From Sulfuriferula multivorans (GTDB lineage: Bacteria; Pseudomonadota; Gammaproteobacteria; Burkholderiales; Sulfuriferulaceae), in assembly GCF_003851125.1 (NCBI RefSeq), contig NZ_BGOW01000044.1, positions 1-37,211 on the forward strand: a DNA stretch of 37,211 bases, read 5' to 3'. Position 1 is the stretch's first letter. Each line of letters opens with the position of its first letter. The translations under genes were made by a program, and so were the position numbers. Below are positions 23,928 to 28,009 of this stretch, in pieces. The notes below the pieces were generated by a model. It worked only from the letters and a program-made list of their open reading frames with translations, was not told the origin of the DNA and ran no database searches.

Positions 23928-24004
23928 GCGCCCATAGCTCAGATGGATAGAGTATTGGTTTCCGAAGCCAAGGGTCGCAGGTTCGAATCCTGCTGGGCGC
24001 ACCA
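23928..24004 (+). tRNA. tRNA-Arg (anticodon CCG)
   Basis: A complete 77-base tRNA with encoded CCA. The acceptor stem is GCGCCCA/TGGGCGC. The D stem is GCTC/GAGT. The anticodon stem TTGGT/GCCAA encloses loop TTCCGAA, giving anticodon CCG, which reads CGG (Arg). The T arm is GCAGG-TTCGAAT-CCTGC. It is 30 bases upstream of the DUF971 gene. Confidence 0.97.
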
Positions 24005-24034: not shown

Positions 24035-24442
24035 ATGGCAGGACTGGACAAAAACACCCCGCAACCCACTGAAATCAAGCTGCACCAGAAATCGCGGGTG
24101 ATGGAAATCGCCTTCGCTGACGGCAGCCGATTCCATTTGCCTTATGAATTCCTGCGCGTGTATTCGCCCTCCGCAGAAGTGCGTGGGCACGGCCATGGCC
24201 AGGAAGTATTGCAGGTTGGCAAGCTGAATGTCGAAATCTCCGGCATCGAGCCGGTCGGCAGTTATGCCGTGCAGCCTATTTTCTCGGACGGCCACGATAC
24301 CGGAATTTTTTCCTGGGATTACCTTTACGAACTGGGCCAAAATCAGGATGCGCTGTGGGAACGCTACCTGCAAAACATGACGAATGCAGGTGCCTCACGC
24401 GAGCCCATCGCCGGTTTTGAAGAGCGTCCCAAGACCAAATAA
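24035..24442 (+). CDS. DUF971 protein
   Basis: A 135-residue DUF971 protein, related to the N-terminal domain of gamma-butyrobetaine hydroxylase. Segments seen are PTEIKLHQKSRVMEIAFADG, LPYEFLRVYSPSAEV and GTGIFSWDYLYELG-like text at the end (here DTGIFSWDYLYELG). The family is widespread in proteobacteria, often near ubiquinone or Fe-S genes, and is thought to bind metal; its role is not settled. The radical SAM gene begins 2 bases after its stop, so the two may be co-translated. Confidence 0.88.
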   Translation: MAGLDKNTPQPTEIKLHQKSRVMEIAFADGSRFHLPYEFLRVYSPSAEVRGHGHGQEVLQVGKLNVEISGIEPVGSYAVQPIFSDGHDTGIFSWDYLYELGQNQDALWERYLQNMTNAGASREPIAGFEERPKTK

Positions 24443-24444
24443 TC

Positions 24445-25881
24445 ATGAATGACTATTTCGCCGTAGACTGGGGCGAAACCGGTACAGCCACAGCAGCTTT
24501 CAAAGTCGTGCTGATCAATCCCTACGAACTCGGTCGCCAGTCCTTTAACCTGACCGCCCCCGCCGCGTTGTTGAAAGCTGCCGGGTGCGAGGTCGCCTGT
24601 CTCGACCTGACACTGCAAAAACTGGAGCCCGACACCCTGCGCGACGCCGGACTGGTGGCCATCCATCTGGGCATGCACACTGCCACCCGCATCGCCATCG
24701 CCGCACTGCCGAAAATCCGCGAACTGGCACCCAGCGCGCACCTCGCCATGTACGGCCTGTACGCGCCGATGAACGCCGACCTGCTGCGCGGGCTGGGCGT
24801 ACATACCCTGCTCGGCGGCGAATCCGAGCCGGACCTGGTGGCGCTGGCGGAACGCTTGCGCGATGGCGATATCAGCGCGCAAAACACGCCGATGGTGCAG
24901 CTCGCGCAAGTGAAATTTCTGCCGCCGGATCGCAGCGGATTGCCCAAACTCACCCGCTACGCCCACCTCAACCTGCCCGACGGCGGCAAAAAAATCGTCG
25001 GCTTTACCGAGACCACGCGCGGCTGCAAGCACCTGTGCCGGCATTGCCCGGTGGTGCCGGTGTATCAGGGCAAGTTCCGCACGGTACAGGTGGACGTGGT
25101 GCTGGCCGACATCGAACAGCAGGTGGTGGCGGGCGCGCAGCACATCTCCTTCGGCGACCCGGATTTTTTCAACGGCCCCACCCACGCGCTGCGCGTGCTG
25201 GAGGCCATGCACCAGCGCTTCCCCAATCTCAGTTTCGACGCCACCATCAAGATCCAGCACCTGCTCGACCACGCCGGCCTGCTGCCGCAATTGCGCGGCT
25301 ACGGTTGCCTGTTCATCACCAGCGCGGTGGAGTCGGTGGACGATGCGGTGCTTGAATATCTGGACAAAAATCACACCCGCGCCGGTTTCGAACGCGCACT
25401 CGGCCTGTGCCGTGCGAACGGCATTTTTCTCGCGCCCACCTTCGTGCCGTTCAACCCGTGGACCACGCTGACCGGCTACATCGACCTGCTCGGCGAACTG
25501 CTGCGCCTGAAACTGGTGCAAGCGGTGCCGCCGGTGCAACTCGCCATCCGCCTGCTGGTGCCGCAGGGCTCCTATCTGCTGCAACTGCCCGGCTTCATTG
25601 AGCAGATCGAGGCTTTCGACCCGGCGTTGCTGGGCTATCCCTGGCATCATGCCGACCCGCGTGTGGACGCCCTGCAGCAACAGATCATGAGCACCGCGAT
25701 GCAGATGGAAAACGCGCCGCGCAGCGAGGTGTTCCGCGCCATCTGGCAACTCGCTCATGACGCCGCCGGGCTACCCGCGCCGACGCTGGAGCACGCCGAC
25801 TTCGGCGCGGCCATCGCCCATCTGTCCGAACCGTGGTACTGCTGCGCCGAGCCCACCGACCAGCAATTGCAATCGTTTTAA
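24445..25881 (+). CDS. CCAEP-tail radical SAM protein with B12-binding-like domain
   Basis: A 478-residue radical SAM enzyme. The N-terminal part (about 19-150) resembles a cobalamin-binding domain (VVLINPYELG, GGESEPD). The Fe-S motif is C194, C198 and C201 in TTRGCKHLCRHCP. The C-terminus has WYCCAEPTDQQ, with C466-C467-A-E-P: the CCAEP tail. From memory, a family is named for CUAEP/CCAEP tails, with U selenocysteine in many members; here position 467 is TGC (Cys), so no selenium is needed. The ATP-grasp gene starts 3 bases later. Substrate and product are unknown; methylation or rearrangement of an amino-acid-like compound is possible. The start is the first ATG after the DUF971 stop. Confidence 0.85.
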   Translation: MNDYFAVDWGETGTATAAFKVVLINPYELGRQSFNLTAPAALLKAAGCEVACLDLTLQKLEPDTLRDAGLVAIHLGMHTATRIAIAALPKIRELAPSAHLAMYGLYAPMNADLLRGLGVHTLLGGESEPDLVALAERLRDGDISAQNTPMVQLAQVKFLPPDRSGLPKLTRYAHLNLPDGGKKIVGFTETTRGCKHLCRHCPVVPVYQGKFRTVQVDVVLADIEQQVVAGAQHISFGDPDFFNGPTHALRVLEAMHQRFPNLSFDATIKIQHLLDHAGLLPQLRGYGCLFITSAVESVDDAVLEYLDKNHTRAGFERALGLCRANGIFLAPTFVPFNPWTTLTGYIDLLGELLRLKLVQAVPPVQLAIRLLVPQGSYLLQLPGFIEQIEAFDPALLGYPWHHADPRVDALQQQIMSTAMQMENAPRSEVFRAIWQLAHDAAGLPAPTLEHADFGAAIAHLSEPWYCCAEPTDQQLQSF

Positions 25882-25884
25882 GCC

Positions 25885-27132
25885 ATGCTGCGCGTCCTGC
25901 TGTTGCTCCCCATCGCCAGTTACCGCAATCAGGATTTCCTCGATGCCGCGCACAAACTGGGCGTGGAAGTGGTCAGTGCCGCCGACCATTGCCATCAGCT
26001 CGCCCCGCAGCGCGGGCTGAGCCCGATCCTGTCTTTGCATTTCGACCAGCCCGAGGCCGCCGCTGCGCAAGTGCTGGCATCGCTGGGACGACGCGTGGAT
26101 GCGGTACTTGCCGTGGACGATGCGGGCGTCGAACTGGCCGCCGTGCTGCGCGAAAAACTCGGCCTGCCCGGCAATGCGCCCGAGGCGGTACGCCCCACCC
26201 GCGACAAACTCGCTTTCCGCCGGCTGTTGCAGCAAAACGGCCTCAACTGTCCGGCGTTTTACCACCTCGCCGGCGCAGCAGAAGCACGCATACTTGCCGC
26301 GCAATTGCATTATCCGGTGGTGGTCAAAGCACGCCGATTGTCTGCCAGCCGTGGTGTGATTCGCGCCGATGATGCGCAGGATTTATTGCAGCAAGTGCGT
26401 CGGGTCAGCCGCATCCAGTCGAGCGCCGACCGCGATGCCAGTGAATTGGGCCTGATCGTCGAAAGCTTCATCCCCGGCAGCGAACACGCCCTCGAGGGCC
26501 TGCTGAAAAACGGCCAGCTGCGCGTGCTGGCCCTGTTCGACAAGCCCGACCCGCTGGACGGCCCGTATTTCGAAGAAAGCATTTACGTCACGCCGTCGCG
26601 TCTGTCCGGTGAGCTGCAGGCCGCCATCGCCGACAGCGTGCAACGCGCCTGCGCAGCCGCCGGGCTCAGCCACGGCGCCATTCACGCCGAAATGCGCGTG
26701 AACGACGCCGGCGTGTGGTTGCTCGAAATCGCTGCGCGCTCCATCGGCGGCCTGTGCGGGCGCATGTTGCGCTGGCGCCTGGGCATGACGCTGGAAGAAC
26801 TCATCCTGCGCCATGCACTGGGGCTGCCGATTGTCCAGCCGGAGCCTAGCGACGCCAGTGGCGTGATGATGATTCCGGTACCCGGGCGCGGCATTTATCA
26901 AAGCGTGGCTGGGCTGGAAGCCGCACGTGCGGTGCCGCACATCGATGACATCCGCATCACCACCGTCCCCGGCCAGCGTATCGCACCCGCCCCGGAAGGC
27001 GCCAGTTACCTCGGCTTCATCTTCAGCCGCGCCGCCACTCCCGCAGCAGCCGAAGCCGCGCTGCGCAGCGCCCATGCCGAGCTGGTTTTTGATATCCGGC
27101 CCGACGTGGTGCTGGCCAAAAGCACCGCCTGA
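25885..27132 (+). CDS. ATP-grasp ligase
   Basis: A 415-residue ATP-grasp protein. The N-terminal domain (1-100) is Rossmann-like; a central lid and ATP-binding region includes YPVVVKARRLSASRGV. The metal and substrate segment is AEMRVNDAGVWLLEIAARSIGG. A C-terminal domain (about 310-410) resembles that of L-amino-acid ligases. Such enzymes join a carboxylate to an amine through an acyl phosphate. It begins 3 bases after the radical SAM stop and its own stop overlaps the kinase start as TGATG. The radical SAM enzyme, ligase and kinase therefore look like a single pathway whose product I do not know. Confidence 0.83.
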   Translation: MLRVLLLLPIASYRNQDFLDAAHKLGVEVVSAADHCHQLAPQRGLSPILSLHFDQPEAAAAQVLASLGRRVDAVLAVDDAGVELAAVLREKLGLPGNAPEAVRPTRDKLAFRRLLQQNGLNCPAFYHLAGAAEARILAAQLHYPVVVKARRLSASRGVIRADDAQDLLQQVRRVSRIQSSADRDASELGLIVESFIPGSEHALEGLLKNGQLRVLALFDKPDPLDGPYFEESIYVTPSRLSGELQAAIADSVQRACAAAGLSHGAIHAEMRVNDAGVWLLEIAARSIGGLCGRMLRWRLGMTLEELILRHALGLPIVQPEPSDASGVMMIPVPGRGIYQSVAGLEAARAVPHIDDIRITTVPGQRIAPAPEGASYLGFIFSRAATPAAAEAALRSAHAELVFDIRPDVVLAKSTA

Positions 27133-28009
27133 TGAGCCTGTGGCAATGCGTAGCCCAGAGCATCCAGGCCGCCCCGGCGCAGCATTCCCTATCCAGCGCA
27201 CCACCCCGGTCGGCGGCGGCTGCATTAACGCCGCCTGGTGCATCGAGAGCGGCACAACGCGTTATTTCGTTAAAACCAACAGCGCTGCCAAACTGCCCTT
27301 GTTCGAGGCGGAAGCAGCTGGTCTCGCCGCACTCGCCGCCAGTCACACCCTGCGCGTGCCGCATCCCGTCACCAGCGGCGTGACGGGTAACGAAGCATTT
27401 CTGGTGCTGGAATGGCTGGATCTGGGCGGCCACGGCAGCGCCGCACAATTTGGCCAACAACTCGCCGCCCTGCACCGGACGACCGCGCCGCGCTTCGGCT
27501 TCGCGTCCGACAACACCATCGGTGCCACCCCTCAGAGCAATCCCTGGACCGACAACTGGATAGACTTCTGGCGCGACCAGCGCCTGGGATTTCAACTCGA
27601 ACTGGCCGCACGCAACGGTTTTGGCGGCAGCCTGCAAACCCGCGGCGAACGCCTGATGGGAAAACTCAACGGCCTGTTCGACGGCTACCAGCCGCAACCC
27701 TCGCTACTGCACGGCGACCTGTGGAGCGGCAACTACGGCTATACCCAGGCGGGCGAGCCGGTCATTTTCGACCCCGCCGTCTACTACGGCGACCGCGAAG
27801 CGGATATCGCCATGACCGAACTGTTCGGCGGCTTCCCGGCGGATTTCTACTCAACTTATCAAGAGGCTTGGCCACTGGATGCAGGTTATTCGGTACGCAA
27901 AACTCTTTACAACCTGTACCACATCCTCAACCACGCCAATCTGTTCGGCGGCAGTTACCCGCGACAGGCGGAGGGGATGATGGAGCGGCTGTTGAGAGAA
28001 TTAGCTTAG
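27132..28009 (+). CDS. Fructosamine-kinase-family protein, frameshifted near its start
   Basis: The main frame has fructosamine/ketosamine-3-kinase motifs: TTPVGGGCINAAWC, FLVLEWL, LHGDLWSGN (catalytic Asp) and VIFDPAVYYGDREADIAM. The expected start is ATG at 27132, overlapping the ATP-grasp stop (TGATG), and it encodes the typical MSLWQCVAQSIQAA. That frame is off by one from the rest; the correct reading would need one more base near 27170-27185 (a CCGCCCCGG run). As it stands, the body can be translated only from ATG 27146, giving 287 residues with an altered N-terminus. It is a recent frameshift, a sequencing error, or recoding. Family members phosphorylate sugar amines bound to protein or small molecules; in this operon a pathway role is possible. 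Confidence 0.8.

Follow-up and report, generated by a model that had tools for sequence, protein, structure and literature searches.

A recurrent pair of a CCAEP-tail radical SAM enzyme and an ATP-grasp ligase that probably makes an undescribed small molecule in Sulfuriferula multivorans and other bacteria

The closest described relatives of the two enzymes considered here are ArsL, a radical S-adenosylmethionine (SAM) enzyme, and BL00235, an L-amino acid ligase. For ArsL, the available part of the paper describing it proposes cleavage of SAM at C-gamma and attachment of the 3-amino-3-carboxypropyl group to As(III); cells expressing arsL alone produced hydroxyarsinothricin (PMC8552651). BL00235 appears in the available part of its source as producing Met-Ala and therefore accepts a gamma-substituted amino acid (PMC4302092). 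The locus described here lies in a 37,211-nucleotide stretch of Sulfuriferula multivorans DNA (assembly GCF_003851125.1, contig NZ_BGOW01000044.1), referred to as the window. Its core consists of a radical SAM gene with a Cys-Cys-Ala-Glu-Pro (CCAEP) tail and an ATP-grasp ligase gene that follows after a 3-base gap, as the initial annotation had read it. The two proteins appear to work together as a dedicated two-enzyme pathway, because their genes co-occur and stay paired in differing surroundings; this pairing is well supported by comparison of genomes. Since the pair co-occurs and ArsL, the nearest named relative, makes an arsenic-containing amino acid, the pair probably makes a small molecule that is not yet described.

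The radical SAM gene (24445-25881, plus strand) encodes 478 amino acids. An NCBIfam profile search, as the initial annotation had suggested, places the protein in the CUAEP/CCAEP-tail family: it scores 590.5 bits against NF040546, whose curated cut-off is 500, and covers positions 1-467 of the 468 in the profile. The ArsL family (NF040542) ranks second with 251.3 bits (E value, E, 1.9e-74), and the third family reaches 37.8 bits. The general radical SAM domain PF04055 matches with 44.2 bits. A CxxxCxxC motif (C194, C198, and C201; 25024-25047, plus strand), expected to hold a [4Fe-4S] cluster, has cysteines that are invariant in 55 aligned sequences including that of the window. The AlphaFold model of the protein has a mean predicted local distance difference test (pLDDT) score of 89.7.

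The CCAEP motif occupies residues 466-470 (25840-25854, plus strand). It had been placed at the very end of the protein, but the residues TDQQLQSF come after it, so that the tail reads WYCCAEPTDQQLQSF. The proposal that Cys stands in place of selenocysteine (Sec) holds, as residue 467 is encoded by TGC in the window. An in-frame TGA at this second tail position, the mark of the Sec form, is found in Thermomicrobium roseum, where the tail reads FC-TGA-AEP with AEP in frame after the TGA. This TGA probably fits a Sec form. The reading rests on the family name and the in-frame AEP, because the hairpin that follows the TGA does not stand out in strength from mononucleotide shuffles, 501 of 1000 of which lie at or below its value. 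The annotation of the T. roseum gene (L118, 9935-11443) stops at the TGA and is probably too short, because the frame stays open through AEP up to the next stop.

The tail was also predicted to be conserved in close relatives, and this is what was found: C466 to P470 are invariant in the window protein and in seven relatives that were found by profile. Across a wider set of 86 loci, the tail is CCAEP in 82 and CCSEP in 3, and the contig ends after CC in one; these counts are partly built in, because the patterns EPWYCCA or MHTATRIA served to retrieve most of the loci. The pattern-fetched loci are the best 80 of 341. Two stretches (L034 and L037), the same as L039 and L038, were dropped ahead of the counts of gene order and kinase linkage given below, and the near-twins L040 and L041 were both counted. 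Nearly all fetched loci are labelled Beta-, Gamma-, or Proteobacteria, with one Acidobacteria (L057) and one 'Bacterium' (L080); beyond these stands T. roseum. Many of the genomes are metagenome-assembled genomes (MAGs). The locus is also present in two MAG records titled Bordetella parapertussis (L044 and L083), whose proteins are 64-69% identical to that of the window; the titles may be wrong. Matches in plasmids comprised one CUAEP gene, that of T. roseum, and 16 genes of the RCCLKC/ArsL kind. A virus origin was considered and rejected, as the 34 pattern matches in viral contigs included no gene for a relative.

The ligase gene (25885-27132, plus strand; 415 amino acids) encodes a protein with an ATP-grasp fold and a LAL_C2 domain. 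PF13535 (96.1 bits) and PF18603 (LAL_C2, 58.6 bits) both match above their cut-offs. The closest solved structure is that of BL00235 (3vot), by sequence (E 5.3e-41) as well as by fold (E 1.6e-34). The predicted model (pLDDT 89.2) ranks 3vot first by fold, with a query-normalised template modelling (TM) score of 0.81-0.84 at 27% identity. Among the 25 NCBIfam matches listed, no ligase model scores above its own cut-off for this protein.

Is the pair found together in other genomes? The initial annotation had staked its pathway proposal on this linkage, and the linkage was found. Among 61 relatives, the own genome included, eight carry both genes and none carries one alone, where the radical SAM gene was counted above the profile cut-off and the ligase family at E 1e-30 or better. 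The eight radical-SAM-positive relatives were found by profile and not by pattern. In a sample of 398 genomes of the phylum (E limits of 1e-30 and 1e-60, with the best 3-4 candidates per genome scored), neither gene was found in the 397 genomes besides the own one. Further evidence comes from gene order at the 78 of the 86 loci whose sequence extends 1200 bp or more beyond the radical SAM gene on its downstream side. A same-strand ligase gene follows within 300 bp in 55 of them and within 2400 bp in 59, and a ligase gene is present anywhere in the fetched stretch in 63. The ligase is absent from the fetched stretch in 19 of the 86 loci, and 15 of those 19 genomes carry it elsewhere. A whole-genome search covered 24 genomes, 18 of them without a ligase in the fetched stretch and 6 with one nearby; the ligase family was present in 14 of the 18, and the nineteenth genome, G050, has a ligase on another contig.

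The pair stays constant while its surroundings vary. The neighbour may be DUF971, ubiE before the pair together with Tim44 after it, a gene of the type seen in L059, or YggX or MutY. The family score, 90 bits above the curated cut-off, and the recurrence of the pair far outside the genus indicate that the observation is more than chance. Some single neighbours may be recorded here. In six loci (L059, L061, L062, L071, L082, and L101), a gene of 157-172 amino acids immediately precedes the radical SAM gene, and the one copy of the six that was read, in L059, is TlpA/ResA-like (thioredoxin-like) at scores below the cut-offs. In L105, a MetE-like gene (PF01717; 11413-12555) lies 2 bp after the CUAEP radical SAM gene, and the ligase is elsewhere in that genome.

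An extra YggX gene accompanies the pair in many other lineages, joined in gammaproteobacteria by an IscA-like gene. YggX is described, in the available part of the source, as a putative iron donor for cluster repair (PMC4982691). Two YggX copies were present in 26 of 28 radical-SAM-positive genomes, which were chosen for being either of gammaproteobacterial type or betaproteobacterial with a nearby YggX, a choice that favours YggX ('gammaproteobacterial type' is a grouping from record titles and gene maps). The unselected comparison is that with the 61 relatives: YggX (PF04362) is single-copy in all 60 that have it, including the eight radical-SAM-positive ones, and the genus of the window has no extra YggX or IscA-like genes near the locus. 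Sixteen of the gammaproteobacterial genomes have two copies, and in 15 of these the YggX with the lower score lies within 850 bp of the ligase gene (the exception is G477). In a 40-row tree, 12 ligase-adjacent copies form one group with support of 100/99, apart from the ordinary copies, and the copies that neighbour the radical SAM gene in betaproteobacteria branch among ordinary YggX. YggX was thus apparently recruited separately in beta- and gammaproteobacteria, because the tree places the two sets apart. Of 18 gammaproteobacterial ligase loci, 16 have an IscA-like gene immediately upstream and 17 have YggX within 900 bp, which in one of them (L185) is the ordinary copy. The one IscA-like protein scanned scores above the general model TIGR00049 and below the cut-offs for ErpA, SufA, and IscA. 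Three of these loci (L181, L183, and L184) hold in addition a second, ordinary-looking IscA. The extra YggX and IscA-type proteins would probably load or repair the iron-sulfur cluster of the radical SAM enzyme in aerobic cells.

How might the two enzymes act? The reading preferred here, to which we give about an even chance of being correct, is an ArsL-like transfer of an aminocarboxypropyl group to an atom held by the tail, followed by amide formation by the ligase. With its [4Fe-4S] cluster, the radical SAM enzyme would break the C-gamma-S bond of SAM in the way proposed for ArsL. The 3-amino-3-carboxypropyl group would then go onto an atom X that is held by the Cys-Cys tail at the C-terminus (in T. 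roseum, probably Cys-Sec), giving 2-amino-4-X-butanoate, an analogue of methionine or glutamate. This compound would next be joined to a second amino acid by the ligase, through an amide bond. The transfer step is suggested by the likeness to ArsL, and the peptide-bond step by the kinship of the ligase with BL00235. The initial annotation had taken the tail to be probably redox-active or a metal or cofactor site; the comparison with ArsL, which also ends in a vicinal Cys pair, gives this proposal a more specific form. A link of ArsL with ATP-grasp ligases also comes from the ArsL loci on plasmids: an ATP-grasp gene is present in all four that were opened (L119-L122, of 16 listed), and the Alicyclobacillus ligase, the only one of the four tested, also has 3vot as its best solved relative. 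These genes hint at arsinothricin-containing peptides. The term 'ATP-grasp' does not occur in the available part of the main text of the ArsL paper (PMC8552651). A more specific version of the reading must be called doubtful: a new bond between carbon and a heteroatom that is neither arsenic nor simply selenium, then a dipeptide, in a pathway widespread in aerobic iron-, sulfur-, and nitrogen-cycling bacteria that has recruited dedicated iron or iron-sulfur paralogues more than once. In that version, iron or another element could be bound by the product as its ligand.

Several results weigh against this ArsL-like chemistry. The window protein scores 251.3 bits, well under the ArsL cut-off of 450, and lacks the RCCLKC tail. 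Of 189 CUAEP positions that are at least 90% conserved, 66 are identical in all four ArsL proteins, C466 and C467 included; this speaks for the ArsL-like reading, but these 66 include general radical SAM residues. The tail cysteines match those of ArsL only over a gap of about 40 residues set by the aligner; the window protein has about 40 more residues before its tail. Among solved folds, AprD4 is the best match to the radical SAM model, which is general evidence only; AprD4 is not known for aminocarboxypropyl transfer. The ligases of the ArsL loci are remote from that of the window, the closest of the four, that of Alicyclobacillus, being 27% identical over 244 residues. When 13 proteins of ArsL loci were used as queries, only the two ArsM queries matched, and in one of the 86 loci (L085); the window, searched over its whole length, matched none of the 13 and no ars genes were found in it. 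Finally, the whole-genome search found no ligase in G492, G496, G497, and G498, in the last three of which a contig ends no more than 351 bp from the radical SAM gene. In T. roseum, neither the surroundings of the gene nor its plasmid, the replicon searched at E 1e-25, yielded a ligase.

The same pair of enzymes could instead form a pathway in which a small organic substrate undergoes canonical 5'-deoxyadenosyl radical chemistry on the radical SAM enzyme, with the Cys-Cys or Cys-Sec tail serving as a redox arm that feeds in electrons or hydrogen. Cys-Sec pairs act as redox sites, and thioredoxin reductases have a C-terminal Cys-Sec arm with which the tail can be compared. The match to AprD4, a 1,2-diol dehydratase with canonical radical chemistry, also speaks for such an enzyme. 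We regard this as possible but not probable, because ArsL is the next family in the sequence search, with a lead of more than 200 bits over the third, and the tail of ArsL also has a Cys pair. If the ArsL-like transfer is kept, X itself may be arsenic, and the pathway would then yield an arsinothricin-like amino acid or dipeptide. ArsL is the nearest other named family, and vicinal thiols bind As(III). In addition, L085 carries an arsenite methyltransferase gene (102-914; NF008823, 373.6 bits against a cut-off of 263) 1.5 kb upstream of YggX, which is followed by the radical SAM and ligase genes. This ArsM was, however, the single hit in the 86 loci for ArsR, ArsN, ArsH, ArsB, and ArsM queries (tblastn, E 1e-6; 42 of the 86 loci have at least 5 kb on both sides). 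The four opened ArsL loci, unlike the CUAEP loci, each carry annotated ars genes (arsM in three and an ArsR-type regulator in three), which makes arsenic an unlikely identity of X.

Selenium, supplied as selenophosphate or selenide, is another candidate for X. The family includes a Sec form, and selD is present above cut-off in 41 of 54 radical-SAM-positive genomes. Yet selD occurs about equally in relatives with the radical SAM gene (7 of 8) and in those without it (41 of 53), and 13 of the 54 positive genomes have no selD above cut-off, 11 of the 13 being of gammaproteobacterial type, although many are incomplete MAGs. We therefore hold selenium to be improbable. A last alternative is that the pair modifies a protein or peptide, with a YggX- or IscA-like carrier or substrate, rather than a free metabolite. 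The extra YggX and IscA-like genes beside the ligase or radical SAM gene in other lineages would fit such a role. A YggX carrier does not seem to be required, because all eight radical-SAM-positive relatives, own genome included, hold a single YggX, and little probability is given to this alternative.

The other genes of the locus in the window appear to lie outside the core pair. A DUF971 gene (GBBH-like_N, PF06155; 24035-24442, plus strand; 105.8 bits against a cut-off of 22.8) ends 2 bases upstream of the radical SAM gene, as the open reading frame list and the DNA confirm. Its membership of the pathway did not survive comparison: the family is present in 57 of the 61 relatives, irrespective of the radical SAM gene. 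It is single-copy in 28 of 33 radical-SAM-positive genomes searched, and is probably a housekeeping neighbour. The domain is known from the iron-sulfur scaffold HCF101, where its function is called elusive in the available part of the source (PMC7980591). A tRNA-Arg (CCG) gene (23928-24004, plus strand) ends 30 bases ahead of DUF971.

A gene of the fructosamine kinase family (27140-28009, plus strand; PF03881, 377.8 bits against a cut-off of 22.4) follows the ligase gene. The two had been described as overlapping in TGATG; the TGATG is present at 27130-27134, but its ATG lies outside the kinase frame. The in-frame starts are GTG at 27140 or ATG at 27146, and the frame ends at 28009. Compared with the close relative L036, the window is one base shorter in the region of the first kinase codons (27130-27146), which could reflect either an error of assembly or a genuine change of frame. 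According to the gene caller, the overlap is 4 bases in 14 of 16 other maps with the two genes side by side; the exceptions are L039 (a gap of 2 bases) and L110 (77 bases). The case for the kinase as a core step is weak. It is linked to the pair in 20 of the 86 loci, all of the genus of the window or of Thiobacillus type. The family occurs in 19 of the 61 relatives. Within the genus, it is found in all four genomes with the radical SAM gene and in none of the 14 without it; in other families, it is unlinked and occurs in 3 genomes that have the radical SAM gene and in 12 that lack it. The kinase tree is compatible with one or two recruitments of the linked kinases. The kinase is thus at most an optional tailoring gene, if it is related to the pathway at all.

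In the literature searched, with subscription journals largely outside it, neither CUAEP nor CCAEP is named, and no report was found of arsinothricin together with ATP-grasp or of a radical SAM and ATP-grasp combination with Sideroxydans. The name of NF040546 gives no function, and the word CUAEP is absent from the available part of a 2026 review of the prokaryotic selenoproteome (PMC13188914). If the ArsL-like reading is true, C-heteroatom bond formation of the ArsL kind would be more than a rarity of arsenic resistance, with a sister pathway in groundwater bacteria and in iron- and sulfur-oxidising bacteria. The two genes would also offer a short, testable route to a new natural product, and the exchange of Cys and Sec would mark the tail residues of interest. 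The repeated recruitment of YggX, with its IscA-like partner in gammaproteobacteria, would provide a new handle on how radical SAM enzymes are kept up in aerobic cells.

The locus can be set beside known systems as follows. The kinase gene is a near full-length match to the fructosamine kinase family, and its membership of the operon is limited to two lineages. The ligase is placed beside the dipeptide-forming BL00235 by both sequence and fold. The radical SAM protein has ArsL as its nearest other family, well ahead of the third; it has in common with ArsL the CxxxCxxC motif, present in all four ArsL proteins compared, and both proteins carry a vicinal Cys pair at the C-terminus.

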